DNA of 64,000 nucleotides from Clostridiaceae bacterium (GTDB lineage Bacteria > Bacillota > Clostridia > Peptostreptococcales > Natronincolaceae). A model generated the notes under the pieces. The model was not told the origin of the DNA, did no database searches, and was given only the letters and a program-made list of their open reading frames with translations. The stretch covers positions 1 to 64,000 of the forward strand of contig JAFIFG010000045.1 of the NCBI GenBank assembly GCA_020832135.1, in the 5' to 3' direction. Shown here piece after piece: positions 21,257 to 42,198 of the stretch; position 1 is the first letter of the stretch, and each line of letters begins with the position of its first letter. Made by a program: the position numbers and the translations under genes.

Positions 21257-21284
21257 AGCATAGACTTAATGGGGGGGGGAAGCT

Positions 21285-23123
21285 ATGAAAAGAGATTATG
21301 TTATTGTAGAAGGGAAAAATTATGAAGAAGTATTAAAATCAGGACTTTCAGACCTAAAATTAAAAAAAGATGAAGTGGAGATAGAAGTCTTGAAGGAACA
21401 AAAATCATCTTTATTTAAAAAGTCCTATATACAATTAAGATTAACTGTAAAGCAAGACAAAGAAGAATTAGAATTAATAAAAAAGGCTCAAGACATAAAT
21501 GTAGAGATAGAAGAAACCGTTTTTAAAAGCGATAAATTATTTTACATAAGTTATCTACTCGATGGGGTGTATATCACTATAAACCAATTGAATAAAAAAG
21601 ACAATAATGAAAATTTAACTATTGAAATATTAGAATATTTGGATAAAAAATCCGTGCAGGAAGTGAATACTGAGGAGATTAAACGAATTGTAAGAGAAAA
21701 AGATGGTAATCCTACTAAAATTGCTCCTCAACAGGAAGAGGTTACAATTGATGGGGAAGCACTTGTTGAAGTGTCGAAGGATAAACTACAGGCTTATATT
21801 ACCATAACAGAAGCTGATGGAGGTAAAGTCATTACTTTAAATGATGCTATGGAAAAGCTTTATCAATATAATATTAAACATGGAGTGGACTATGATAAGC
21901 TGAAAAACATAATAGGGAATAATATACTCAATGAAAAAGTGCTTATTGCAGAAGGTAAAAAAGCTATTGATGGTAAGGACGGTAGCTTAATTTATCATTT
22001 TGATATGACAAAAAAGCACCAACCTCAAATACTAGAGGATGGTTCAGTAGATTTCAAACAACTGGACTTAATAACTAATGTACATAAAGGTGATATATTA
22101 ATCGAAATACAGTCTCCTATAGAGGGTACAGAAGGTGTGAATGTACTAGGTGAAAAAATCCCCCCTCAAAAAGGAAAAGCTCCTAAGATACTTATAGGGA
22201 AGAATATAATAGAAAGTAAAGATGGGTTAAAATTATATGCTAATCTAGATGGACAAGTGTTTTACAGGGATGGCAAAATTGAAGTAAATCAAGTATATGA
22301 AATACCGGGAGATGTAGATAACTCTACTGGCAATATTAAATTTAATGGGAAAGTAGTTGTTAGGGGTAGTGTTAAATCAGGTTTTGTTGTAGATGCACAG
22401 GGAGATATAGAAGTGAATGGTGTAGTAGAAGGGGCTACCCTTATTGCTAGGGATAATATTATTCTAAATAGAGGAGTTCAAGGTAATAATCAAGCCTATT
22501 TACAGTGCGATGGAGACTTAATAGCAAAATATATAGAGAATACAAGAATAAAAGTTTCGGGTAATATCCAGGCAGATTGTATTATGCATAGTATTGTAGT
22601 TTCTAAGGGTAATGTTATTGTAAGTGGACGACGAGGTCTAGTAGTAGGCGGACAGGTTAAAGTTGCTGAAGAAATTGTTGCAAAGATAATAGGATCTAAT
22701 ATGGGGACAAGCACCATTATAGAAGTAGGAATAGATCCTGATGAGAAACAAAGGTATGATAGTATAAAAAAGGAAATAACTAAAATAGAAGAAAACTTAA
22801 GTAATTTAAAGAAAACTATAGAGCTCTTAAATAAAGCTAATAAAAGTTCTAAACTACAGGAAAATAAAGAGGAAATTTTGGTTAAGTCACTAAAAACCTA
22901 TGAGTACTTAAAGGATAAATATGAAAATCTTTTAAATGAACTTAATACACTAGAGATTAAAATGCAAAACCTATCCAAAGGAAAAATACATGTAAGTAAC
23001 AAGTTATATCCAGGAGTAAAAGTTGCAATTCAAAATGCTGTAAGACATATACATGAGGAAATACCTATATGTACCTTATATAAAAAAGAAGGAGAAATTG
23101 TTATTGGGCCTTATGAAAAATAG
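21285..23123 (+). CDS. fapA: FapA/DUF342 polymer-forming flagellar assembly protein with Jag-N-like head
   Basis: Large protein of the FapA (DUF342) family, linked in other bacteria to flagellar regulation; molecular role unsettled. The 612 residues start with a ~55-residue Jag/KhpB N-terminal-type domain (IVEGKNYEEVLKSGLSDLKL). The DUF342 beta-helix region follows (about 190-485, short glycine- and valine-rich repeats). A coiled coil lies at about 485-560, with a short C-terminal end. The ribosome-binding site is a G8 run just before ATG 21285. Confidence 0.85.
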   Translation: MKRDYVIVEGKNYEEVLKSGLSDLKLKKDEVEIEVLKEQKSSLFKKSYIQLRLTVKQDKEELELIKKAQDINVEIEETVFKSDKLFYISYLLDGVYITINQLNKKDNNENLTIEILEYLDKKSVQEVNTEEIKRIVREKDGNPTKIAPQQEEVTIDGEALVEVSKDKLQAYITITEADGGKVITLNDAMEKLYQYNIKHGVDYDKLKNIIGNNILNEKVLIAEGKKAIDGKDGSLIYHFDMTKKHQPQILEDGSVDFKQLDLITNVHKGDILIEIQSPIEGTEGVNVLGEKIPPQKGKAPKILIGKNIIESKDGLKLYANLDGQVFYRDGKIEVNQVYEIPGDVDNSTGNIKFNGKVVVRGSVKSGFVVDAQGDIEVNGVVEGATLIARDNIILNRGVQGNNQAYLQCDGDLIAKYIENTRIKVSGNIQADCIMHSIVVSKGNVIVSGRRGLVVGGQVKVAEEIVAKIIGSNMGTSTIIEVGIDPDEKQRYDSIKKEITKIEENLSNLKKTIELLNKANKSSKLQENKEEILVKSLKTYEYLKDKYENLLNELNTLEIKMQNLSKGKIHVSNKLYPGVKVAIQNAVRHIHEEIPICTLYKKEGEIVIGPYEK

Positions 23124-29459: not shown

Positions 29460-30608
29460 ATGACAAAAAAAATCAGTGTTTTAGGGTCTACAGGCTCTAT
29501 TGGAAAACAAACATTAGAAATTGTAAAGGAACATCCAGATAAATTCAAAATAGTTGGTTTGGCAGTAATGAAAAGCATTGATCTCTTAGAACAACAGATT
29601 AAAGAGTTTAATCCGGAAGTGGTAGCGGTCTTTGACAAAGAACAAGCTAAAATATTATCAAGTAGAATTTCTGCTAATATAAAAATATATTCGGGTATAG
29701 AAGGCTTAATTGCAGTAGCTACTCACCACTCTGCTGAATTAGTCTTAAACTCCGTAGTAGGGAGTATAGGACTTTTGCCAACAATTGAAGCTATAAAAGC
29801 AAAAAAAAATATTGCCTTAGCAAATAAAGAGACTTTAGTGGCTGCTGGGGAACTGGTAATGAAGGAGTGTGCAAAAAATAATGTGAGCATAATTCCAGTA
29901 GACAGTGAACATTCAGCTATATTTCAATGCTTACAAGGAGAAAAAATTATCGATATATCAAAAATTATATTGACAGCATCAGGTGGACCTTTCAGGGACT
30001 GGGACTATGATGCTATTAAGAAAGCAACCATTCAAGATGCCTTAAAACATCCTAACTGGAGTATGGGAAAAAAAATATCCATTGATTCTGCCACTTTGAT
30101 GAATAAAGGGTTAGAGGTTATTGAAGCAAAATGGTTATTTAATGTAGAGGTGGAAAAAATACAAGTAGTAGTGCATCCTCAAAGTGTTATTCACTCTATG
30201 GTAGAATTAAAGGACAACTCTATTATTGCACAAATGGGAGTGCCAGATATGAAATTGCCTATACAGTATGCCCTTTCATATCCCGACAGAATTGAGGGTG
30301 AAGTTACTAAACTAGATTTTACTAAATATAACTCACTAACTTTTAATGAGCCAGATATAAGAAGATTCCCTTGCTTGTCTCTAGCATATGAGGCACTAGA
30401 AGTGGGAAATACAATGCCTTGTGTATTAAACATTGCTAATGAAGTGTTAGTGGCTTGCTTTTTAAAAGGAAAAATAAGTTTTTATGATATACCTAAATAT
30501 ATTGAAAAAATAATGGAGAGTCATAACCCCTTTCCCTATAGCTCTGCTAAAGAATTGATTGATTTAGAAAAATGGGTTAAAAACTGGATTTTAAATGAAT
30601 TGAGATAG
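29460..30608 (+). CDS. dxr: 1-deoxy-D-xylulose 5-phosphate reductoisomerase
   Basis: Second step of the MEP isoprenoid pathway: NADPH-dependent conversion of DXP to MEP, feeding UppS. The 382 residues begin with the nucleotide-binding motif (VLGSTGSIGKQTLEIV, about 6-21). Further motifs are NKETLVAAGELV and PVDSEHSAIFQCL with active-site acidic residues, then ASGGPFRDW. GGGGTGGG precedes ATG 29460. Another MEP-pathway gene, ispG, lies two genes on. Confidence 0.97.
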   Translation: MTKKISVLGSTGSIGKQTLEIVKEHPDKFKIVGLAVMKSIDLLEQQIKEFNPEVVAVFDKEQAKILSSRISANIKIYSGIEGLIAVATHHSAELVLNSVVGSIGLLPTIEAIKAKKNIALANKETLVAAGELVMKECAKNNVSIIPVDSEHSAIFQCLQGEKIIDISKIILTASGGPFRDWDYDAIKKATIQDALKHPNWSMGKKISIDSATLMNKGLEVIEAKWLFNVEVEKIQVVVHPQSVIHSMVELKDNSIIAQMGVPDMKLPIQYALSYPDRIEGEVTKLDFTKYNSLTFNEPDIRRFPCLSLAYEALEVGNTMPCVLNIANEVLVACFLKGKISFYDIPKYIEKIMESHNPFPYSSAKELIDLEKWVKNWILNELR

Positions 30609-38420: not shown

Positions 38421-39461
38421 ATGAGTACGGAGTTTATTGAAGCTCTAGAGCAAATCCAAAAGGACAAAGGTATCTCAAAAGATGTATTGCTTGATGCAAT
38501 TGAAGCAGCTTTAATATCAAGCTACAAAAGGAATTTTGGCTCTGCTCAAAATGTAAGAGTTGAAATTAATAGAGACAATGGTGATGTTCATGTATATTCA
38601 CAAAAAGAAATAGTGGATAATGTGGAGGATGATTTGCTACAAATTAGTTTAGAGGAAGCTAAAGAAACAAGTAGGAATTATGAATTAGGAGATATAATAG
38701 AAAAAGAAGTTACACCTAGAAACTTTGGTAGAATTGCAGCTCAAACTGCAAAACAAGTAGTAGTTCAGAGAATACGAGAAGCAGAACGGGGTATAGTTTA
38801 CGAAGAGTTTATTAATCGAGAATCTGACATTATTACTGGAACTGTAGCTAGGCTAGCCAAAGGTATAGTATATATTAATTTAGGAAAAATTGAAGCTATG
38901 CTAGCGCCTACTGAACAAATTCCTAATGAGCAATATAACCATGGAGACAGGGTAAAAACTTATATTGTAGAAGTAAAGAAAACCACAAAAGGACCGCAGG
39001 TATTAGTTTCTAGAACACATCCAGGATTAATAAAAAGACTGTTTGAATTAGAGGTGCCAGAAATACATGATGGTACAGTTGAAATTAAAAGCATCTCTCG
39101 TGAAGCTGGATCTAGAACAAAGATAGCAGTGGAATCTAGGGATCCAAATGTTGATGCAGTAGGTGCATGTGTTGGACCGAAGGGTGCAAGAGTTCAGACT
39201 ATAGTAGACGAACTAAGAGGAGAAAAAATAGACATTATAAAATACAGTGAAGATCCAAGTGCTTTTATTGCTAGCTCCTTAAGTCCAGCTAAAGTTATTA
39301 CATCAGAGGTAGATGTAGAAAACAAAACAGCTAAAGTTGTAGTACCAGATTATCAATTATCGTTGGCTATTGGTAAAGAAGGACAAAATGCTAGATTAGC
39401 TGCCAAACTGACAGGATGGAAAATAGATATAAAAAGTGAAAGTCAACAAGAAGTAAAGTAA
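38421..39461 (+). CDS. nusA: Transcription termination/antitermination factor NusA
   Basis: RNA polymerase-binding factor that modulates pausing and termination. The 346 residues comprise the N-terminal polymerase-binding domain (about 1-125), an S1 domain (about 135-200, IITGTVARLAKGIVYINLGK) and two KH domains (about 205-345, GACVGPKGARVQTIVDEL, then AIGKEGQNARLAAKLTGW). The C-terminal acidic repeats of E. coli NusA are absent, as is usual in Firmicutes. GGGGGTATT precedes ATG 38421. Confidence 0.97.
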   Translation: MSTEFIEALEQIQKDKGISKDVLLDAIEAALISSYKRNFGSAQNVRVEINRDNGDVHVYSQKEIVDNVEDDLLQISLEEAKETSRNYELGDIIEKEVTPRNFGRIAAQTAKQVVVQRIREAERGIVYEEFINRESDIITGTVARLAKGIVYINLGKIEAMLAPTEQIPNEQYNHGDRVKTYIVEVKKTTKGPQVLVSRTHPGLIKRLFELEVPEIHDGTVEIKSISREAGSRTKIAVESRDPNVDAVGACVGPKGARVQTIVDELRGEKIDIIKYSEDPSAFIASSLSPAKVITSEVDVENKTAKVVVPDYQLSLAIGKEGQNARLAAKLTGWKIDIKSESQQEVK

Positions 39462-39474
39462 GGGATGTGATTTT

Positions 39475-39747
39475 ATGAAAACAAAAAAGATCCCACTAAG
39501 AAAATGTATTGGGTGTAATGAGATGATACCTAAAAAGCAATTAATAAGAGTAGTTCGTAACAAAGAAGGAGAAACAAGTATAGATACTACGGGAAAAGCT
39601 CATGGCAGAGGAGCTTATGTGTGTAACAATAAAGATTGCTTCAAAAAAATAAATAAAACAAAGGCACTAAACAGAGCTTTCAAGTGTGAAATACCACAAG
39701 AAATTTATGAAAGATTAACCAAGGAGATTGATGATAGTGAACAATAA
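39475..39747 (+). CDS. ylxR: YlxR family RNA-binding protein (RnpM)
   Basis: Small nucleic-acid-binding protein; in Bacillus it was reported to modulate RNase P activity. The 90 residues begin with the family motif RKCIGCNEMIPKKQLIRVV and continue GKAHGRGAYVCNNKDCFKK. These carry four cysteines that pair as CxxC and CxxxxC. GGGATGTGATTT precedes ATG 39475. Its end overlaps the ylxQ start. Confidence 0.93.
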   Translation: MKTKKIPLRKCIGCNEMIPKKQLIRVVRNKEGETSIDTTGKAHGRGAYVCNNKDCFKKINKTKALNRAFKCEIPQEIYERLTKEIDDSEQ

Positions 39748-40047
39748 GGTTGTGAATTATTTAGGTTTAGCCATGAGGGCCGGCAAAATTGTATCAGGTG
39801 AAGATTTATGCAAGAAAGAACTTAAAAAAAAAATATATTTCTTATGATTGTAGCTGAAGATGCCTCCTCAAATACAAAAAAAGTTTTTATGGACAAAACA
39901 AAGTACTATAACACGCCCTTAAGATTTACAGGAACTAAAGAGGAATTAGGACATTCTATAGGAAAGACTACTAGAGCTGTTATGGGAGTAAAGGACAAAA
40001 GGTTAGCAGAAATATTGTTAGAGCAAATAGGTAATAAGGATGTTTAA
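39731..40047 (+). pseudogene. ylxQ: YlxQ (L7Ae-family) gene split by a frame change at an A10 run
   Basis: L7Ae/L30e-type RNA-binding protein, normally ~100 aa. The first part, from ATG 39731 or GTG 39737, reads VVNYLGLAMRAGKIVSGEDL and runs into the A10 tract 39824-39833. It then stops at TGA 39845-39847. The rest (MIVAEDASSNTKKVF to the stop at 40047) is in the -1 frame. Joining the two at the A-run gives an uninterrupted family sequence of 105 aa (...KKKNIFLMIVAED...). It could be a true mutation, a homopolymer sequencing error, or recoding by transcriptional slippage or -1 ribosomal frameshifting. AAGGAG (39721-39726) is the ribosome-binding site. Confidence 0.85.
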
Positions 40048-40065
40048 ATATAGGGGGTGATTATT

Positions 40066-42198
40066 TTGTCAAAGGTGAGGGTGTACCAATTGGCAAAACA
40101 ATTAGGTATCAGTAGTAAGGATTTAATTGAAAAACTAAAGGAATTATCAGTAGAAGTGGGAAATCATATGAGCACTTTAGAAGATGAAGATGCAAAATTA
40201 TTAGTTGAACTTTTCACTTCAGAAAATGACAGTGTTAGTAATTTAGGCAATACAGTGGAGAAGCCTACAATTCAAGAAAACAAAGAATCAAAAGTCACAG
40301 AAAAAACCTCGGTAGATAAAAGCCAAGAAGCAAAAAAAGATAGTGGTAGCAAAAACCATAATAACAAAAATAAAAGTAAAAACAAAAATAAGAAGAAATT
40401 CAAAAATAGTAATGAACACGTACGAGAGAATACACAGGAAAAAGGTGAGCAAGTGATACAAATAGATGAAAAAATTATTGTTAAAGATTTTGCAGAAAAG
40501 ATAAATAAAAACCCAAATGAAATTATAGGGAAATTAATACAACAAGGTGTTATGGCTGCTATCAATCAAGAAATTGATTTTGAGACAGCAGAAGCTATAG
40601 CTAATGAGTATGAAATAGAAGTAGAAAAAAACACCACCGTACAAGAAGAAATAGCAGATTTATATATAGCTCCAGATGATGAGAAAGACTTAAAACCTCG
40701 TCCACCTGTGGTAACAGTAATGGGTCATGTAGACCACGGTAAAACTTCATTACTTGATGCCATCAGACAAACACATGTAACAGAAAGAGAAGCTGGTGGA
40801 ATCACACAGCATATCGGAGCATCAGAAGCAGAAGTTGGTGGAAAGAAAATTGTGTTTTTAGATACACCAGGACATGAAGCTTTTACTACTATGAGGGCAA
40901 GAGGAGCAAAGGTTACTGACATTGCTATTTTAGTAGTTGCTGCTGATGATGGAGTTATGCCTCAAACCATTGAAGCTATTAATCATGCTAAGGCAGCAGA
41001 AGTTCCTATTATTGTGGCAATTAACAAAATGGATAAAATAGGTGCTAATTCTGATCGTGTAAAGCAGGAACTGGCAGACCACGGTGTTATCATAGAAGAA
41101 TGGGGCGGGGATGTTATAGCTGTTGAAGTATCAGCTATAGAAGGAACAAACATAGATACACTATTAGAAATGATTTTATTAGTAGCTGAGATGGAGGAGT
41201 TAAAGGCAAATCCTAACCGTAGAGCTATAGGAACTGTGATAGAAGCTAGACTTGATAAAGGTAGAGGACCAGTAGCTACTATTTTGGTACAAAATGGTAC
41301 CTTAACAGTTGGGGACCCTGTTGTTATTGGGAACACTTATGGTAGAATAAGAGCTATGTTGAGTCATAAAGGTAAAAATGTTAAAGCTGCTAATCCAGCT
41401 ACTGCAGTTGAGATTACAGGGTTTTCTGAAGTACCAGAAGCTGGAGATCAATTAGTGGCGGTAGAAGACGACAAGACAGCAAGAGATATATCTGAAAAAA
41501 GAAAAGAAAAAATTAAAGAAGAGCAATTGAAGACAAGTCAAAAAATTTCTCTTGATGCACTATATAGTCAGATGCAACAGGGGCAAATTAAAGATCTAAA
41601 TATAATTATTAAGGCAGATGTACAAGGATCAGTAGAGGCAGTAAAGCAATCTATTGAAAAACTATCTACTGACAAAGTAATTATTAAAGCAATTCACGGC
41701 GGGGTAGGTGCTATTACTGAAACCGATGTTATGCTAGCTGCTGCTTCCAATGCCATTATCATAGGTTTTAATGTAAGACCTACTTCGGGTGCTACAGGTA
41801 CTGCTAAAAAAGAAGAAGTAGACATTAGAACCTACAGAATTATATATAATGCATTAGAAGATATAGAAGCAGCTATAAAAGGTATGCTTGATCCAGAATA
41901 CAAAGAAGTTGAACTAGGGAAAGCGGAAGTTAGAGCGACCTTTAAAGTTCCAGGGATTGGAGCTATTGGAGGGTGCTATGTTATAGAAGGAAAAATATTA
42001 AGAAATGCTAAAGTTAGATTAGTTAGAGATGGAATTGTGATTCATGATGGTGCAATAGGTTCATTAAGGAGATTTAAAGATGATGCTAAAGAAGTAGCTA
42101 CCGGATATGAATGTGGTATTGGCTTAGATAACTTCAATGACCTTAAAGAAGGAGATATTATTGAAGCATATCAAATGCAAGAAATAGAAATCAAATAG
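40066..42198 (+). CDS. infB: Translation initiation factor IF-2
   Basis: GTPase that brings initiator tRNA to the ribosome. AGGGGGTGAT (40052-40061) supports TTG 40066, giving 710 residues. The start [20 protein letters not shown] is the IF2 N-terminal domain, followed by a Lys/Asn-rich linker (about 80-125). The G domain has G1 at 220-228 (GHVDHGKTS), then DTPGHEAF and NKMDK. The C-terminal domains end with an initiator-tRNA-binding beta barrel. It is a short, single-form IF2. Confidence 0.97.

Follow-up and report, generated by a model that had tools for sequence, protein, structure and literature searches.

The window, as we call the whole 64,000-nucleotide stretch of DNA that was analysed, carries the genes nusA-ylxR-ylxQ-infB-rbfA-nrnA-truB in this order. 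Both nusA (38,421–39,461, + strand) and ylxR (39,475–39,747, +), the upstream neighbour of ylxQ, are intact, as is the downstream neighbour infB (40,057–42,198, +), which has a Shine-Dalgarno sequence of its own. The gene between ylxR and infB occupies the place in the nusA operon by which YlxQ is recognised, and it lies in two reading frames. Its 0-frame part (39,737–39,847, +) runs from a GTG start to a TGA stop (39,845–39,847) over about 36 codons and on its own encodes a truncated protein, and its -1-frame part (39,834–40,047, +) holds the remainder of an L7Ae-like domain and ends at a TAA (40,045–40,047). The frames meet at a run of ten As (A10; 39,824–39,833, +), the putative slippage tract, which holds the heptamer A_AAA_AAA in the 0 frame, is separated from the TGA by 11 bases and is the sole run of at least ten As in the window. 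Direct reading of the letters agreed exactly with the original prediction on the tract, the stop and the extent of the -1 frame.

Two starts are possible, an in-frame ATG at 39,731 and the GTG at 39,737. The GTG is the likely one, because an AAGGAG (about 39,721–39,726) lies at a good distance from it and homologs start at that codon; the frame-restored product would then have about 103 residues, compared with 105 counted from the ATG. This product passed the Pfam model Ribosomal_L7Ae (PF01248; 38.4 bits vs. a cut-off of 22.1, E = 1e-9) and the NCBIfam model PRK05583 (78.7 bits vs. a cut-off of 77), while PRK07714 (YlxQ) scored it at 93.5 bits, under its cut-off of 113. Neither half of the gene, searched separately, reached the cut-off of any curated Pfam or NCBIfam model. 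The product also aligned to the solved structure of Bacillus subtilis YlxQ (3v7q) with E = 4e-18, crossing the joint without a gap. These matches bear out the earlier claim that joining the frames at the A-run restores a family-like protein of 105 residues, and we identify the predicted product as the L7Ae-like RNA-binding protein YlxQ.

The split gene in related genomes

Using the frame-restored YlxQ as query, we searched 20 genomes of the family and found ylxQ in 18 of them. It is split in four, the window's own genome (G000) and G010, G012 and G013, each belonging to another genus, and is uninterrupted in a single frame in the remaining 14. All four split genes break at one common codon, at an A9 or A10 and in the -1 direction. 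The junction reads CTT AAA AAA AAA ATA TAT TTC TTA TGA in G000 (A10), CTT AAA AAA AAA GAT TAT ATT TAA in G012 (A9), TTA AAA AAA AAT TAT ATT TAA in G013 (A9) and TTA AAA AAA AAC TTT ACT TAG in G010 (A9). The comparison of the A-run in related genomes that the original prediction had proposed as a check thus returned an A9 with the identical break in three other genera. Two of the uninterrupted genes, in G001 and G014, carry an A9 at the homologous place, in frame. The other genes of the operon had been described as intact, and this holds for the six ylxQ-neighbouring genes examined, both in the window and in the relatives (18 of 18 genomes).

We extended the search to the order, where 306 of 394 genomes had a match, and to the class, where 284 of 392 did. 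No additional clear ylxQ split appeared among the matches listed, though a split leaving only a single weak, partial match may lie beyond them. Genomes of the order with two matches were checked as possible splits and proved to hold paralogs or contig ends instead; this one-by-one check covered the order. In the class, G405, G407 and G482 had two matches, which are full-length in G405 and G407. Within the family, G011 and G018 (1.6 Mb, one genus) gave no ylxQ match at all, and the gene therefore seems to be dispensable or strongly diverged in this small-genome lineage.

In a tree built on 1885 operon columns, all four split genomes fall within a fully supported seven-member clade, the other three members of which (G001, G005 and G015) are intact. 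Path lengths among the split genomes were roughly 0.45–0.75 changes per column. The minimum on this tree is three changes, as with a single break in the ancestor that was later repaired twice. Forcing the four split genomes into one clade was borderline rejected (AU p = 0.051) and forcing the three intact genomes into one clade was not rejected (p = 0.23); if the intact three do form a clade, one break and one repair would be enough. Because branches within the seven-genome clade are weakly supported, independent breaks at the shared A-run are possible as well. The pattern indicates that the split is favoured or tolerated in this clade, either repeatedly or over a long time, and it is not required, since G001, G005 and G015 keep an unbroken ylxQ within the clade.

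We compared the split genes by codon position in the -1 frame, from an A-D-A-S motif onward. After the break, G000 and G013 show 18, 9 and 32 differences at positions 1, 2 and 3, respectively, and differ at 24 of 56 residues, and G000 and G010 show 11, 10 and 34 differences at the same positions. In every split gene the -1 frame after the break is free of stops, compared with three to eight in each of the other two frames, and the encoded protein keeps the invariant residues of the YlxQ family. This position-3 variation in the -1 frame, together with the conserved protein, indicates that the cell makes the trans-frame protein and that selection acts on it, and since a dead gene would lose its open frame over such divergence, ylxQ does not appear to be a pseudogene. 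The identical split in three more genera and this selection argue against both a sequencing error and a fresh pseudogene. The original prediction had offered recoding, a newly broken gene or a wrong base count as explanations; the common break, codon and direction in G010, G012 and G013 and the conservation downstream point to the first of these, and recoding is well supported as the explanation of the split: the gene has almost certainly not been lost, and its full-length product is made by slippage at the A-run.

Long A-runs and candidate decoding mechanisms

A-run counts in the window showed a constant drop of 0.39 per added base through seven, and then of 0.165 and 0.14. In a pattern search of the whole genome we located 78 runs of at least nine As (A≥9), where about 806 are expected by extrapolation from the 64-kb window, and 11 runs of at least ten, where about 314 are expected on the same basis; they are thus approximately 10-fold and 28-fold rarer, respectively. 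Baranov et al. (2005; PMC1088944) used avoidance of A≥9 to identify organisms in which RNA polymerase is prone to slippage at A9, and recognised functional use by an ORF organisation shared among non-identical homologs. Both are found for ylxQ, with avoidance of long A-runs in the genome and a recurrent fused ORF organisation. Avoidance of long A-runs can stem from DNA replication slippage too.

We consider it probable, from the sequence comparisons above, that ylxQ is a working gene decoded by RNA polymerase slippage at the A10. The polymerase would slip on the tract and add one A in a fraction of transcripts; slipped transcripts would give the complete L7Ae-like YlxQ (about 103 residues), and unslipped ones a stub of about 36 residues ending at the TGA at 39,845. 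Consistent with transcriptional realignment, an A-run of about nine or more is kept at the frame junction in non-identical homologs, runs of this length are otherwise avoided, and the trans-frame product is under selection. In vivo, slippage at an A9 in IS1447 of Clostridium thermocellum amounts to about 16% each way (PMC6211511). Against this reading, in genome-wide RNA data from Escherichia coli and Buchnera, insertions increase with run length, with no frame restored (PMC5574713).

Rather unlikely, in our assessment, is -1 frameshifting by the ribosome on A_AAA_AAA, in which the transcript stays A10 and some ribosomes slip by one base into the -1 frame and so complete YlxQ. The slippery heptamer does stand in the 0 frame of all four split genes, with a stop a few codons on, and the direction is -1 in each. 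However, seven As would do for this purpose, yet all four genes have nine or ten, and by eye we saw no Shine-Dalgarno-like element at close upstream spacing. The z-score of the downstream fold is near 0 in G000, G012 and G013 in a model of pseudoknot-free folding, and only that of G010 is low (-3.5 over 120 nt); with no significant downstream fold in those three genomes, there appears to be no conserved ribosomal stimulator. Stimulator-free heptamers in E. coli exceed a background of approximately 0.05% by no more than about 10-fold (PMC4066793), which also counts against the ribosome. Because the runs always have at least nine As, no stimulator is conserved and long A-runs are avoided, the data lean toward RNA polymerase in a choice between polymerase and ribosome that the original prediction had not made.

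That ylxQ is a contingency locus, toggled among cells by slippage during DNA replication and caught in the off state in the sequenced genomes, we regard as very unlikely. Homopolymer runs are unstable, and the in-frame A9 of G001 and G014 would fit such toggling, but each of the four broken genes shows the -1 state and none the alternative off state. In addition, this conserved operon gene is intracellular and not a surface gene, and runs of nine or ten As would be short for a phase-variable locus. We give almost no weight to the production of two proteins, with the C-terminal part re-initiated at an ATGA (39,844–39,847, +) in which the -1-frame ATG at 39,844 overlaps the 0-frame TGA. This overlap exists in G000, but the other split genes do not share it (G010, G012 and G013 have no ATG, GTG or TTG near the break in the -1 frame), and the N-terminal protein would comprise just 36 residues cut from one small domain. 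Equally improbable is an error of sequencing or assembly, or a recent pseudogene, which a ten-base homopolymer in a draft assembly of 155 contigs might invite but which is hard to reconcile with the identical break in three more genera, with some 30 other A≥9 runs of G000 that lie in intact frames and with the selection on the shifted frame.

If RNA polymerase slippage does decode ylxQ, its role could be of more than one kind. We suggest only tentatively, and with some doubt, that the split was ancestral to the seven-genome clade, was kept as a programmed device that controls how much YlxQ is made from the nusA-infB operon, and was lost in one or two lineages. As an alternative to such regulatory use of the product ratio, slippage may merely rescue an old deletion.

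Known slippage systems and other long runs

A close likeness to the decoding proposed for ylxQ is in tssM1 of Citrobacter rodentium (A11; PMC4256274), also a chromosomal gene with a stop soon after a long A-run, in which slippage adds As to yield the full-length protein without a nearby ribosomal stimulator; Yersinia tssM3 is a second case of this kind (PMC4256274). The evidence for tssM1 comes from RNA mass spectrometry and protein blots, whereas that for ylxQ is comparative, and both tssM1 products are needed, the truncated one being functional and 807 residues long, unlike the stub of about 36 residues from ylxQ. The IS1447 transposase (PMC6211511) resembles ylxQ in having an A9 in a clostridial host and in that only a +1 insertion gives the full-length product, but it belongs to a mobile element and not to a conserved chromosomal operon. 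In Buchnera and Blochmannia, frame-broken cellular genes are likewise rescued at long A-runs, with 12–50% of the transcripts of poly(A)-tract genes corrected (PMC5009743); the genomes of these endosymbionts are reduced and abound in A-runs, in contrast to G000, which has 4 Mb and in which such runs are strongly avoided. Thermus dnaX (A9, transcriptional slippage; PMC1088944) is, like ylxQ, a conserved housekeeping gene with a slippage tract, but there the unslipped product is the full-length one and the slipped product is shorter, the reverse of the order proposed here.

Slippage decoding is already known from tssM1, IS1447 and Thermus dnaX, and the unusual point here is that a gene of the nusA-infB operon, conserved and non-mobile, is proposed to use it across genera. 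Few conserved cases concern ordinary chromosomal genes, and six of the seven conserved A9 cases in the 2005 survey were insertion sequences (PMC1088944). A text search of the literature returned no paper tying ylxQ to transcriptional slippage, and ylxQ is not mentioned in the GeneTack survey's main text. The split in four genera offers a tractable test of whether slippage is selected as dose control or tolerated, and annotation pipelines may label split genes such as ylxQ as pseudogenes.

We read all 78 A≥9 runs of G000 and judged three genes to be split there, each in the -1 direction: ylxQ, a PRC-barrel protein gene and an orphan gene. The PRC-barrel gene (C50:37225-37763, - strand; L198) is split at an A9 (C50:37612-37620); its homologs are intact in G001, G005, G010 and G012, with an A10 lying in frame at roughly the equivalent place in G010. 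The orphan gene (C102:4466-4935, - strand; L175), also split at an A9, has good codon usage on both sides of the break and no convincing homolog in the 20 relatives. These two look like isolated breaks, possibly part-rescued by slippage, and ylxQ is the only shared case. Among the 58 such runs read in G010, 26 lie in intact frames and ylxQ was the sole gene judged split. Apparent breaks at truA, a spoIIE-like gene, a radical SAM gene, mobA, fliO/fliP and cysE/cysS were rejected, as the true frame continues or the run lies at the edge of the gene.

Two further runs were seen in the window. An A9 at 29,801–29,809 lies in frame in a dxr-like gene (AIKAKKNIAL), where slippage would lose some product. 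A nine-G run at 21,271–21,279 stands just 5′ of the ATG at 21,285. The gene starting there encodes 612 residues, looks FapA-like by eye and comes after a sigma-factor gene; the G-run may serve as a strong Shine-Dalgarno sequence or as one of variable length.
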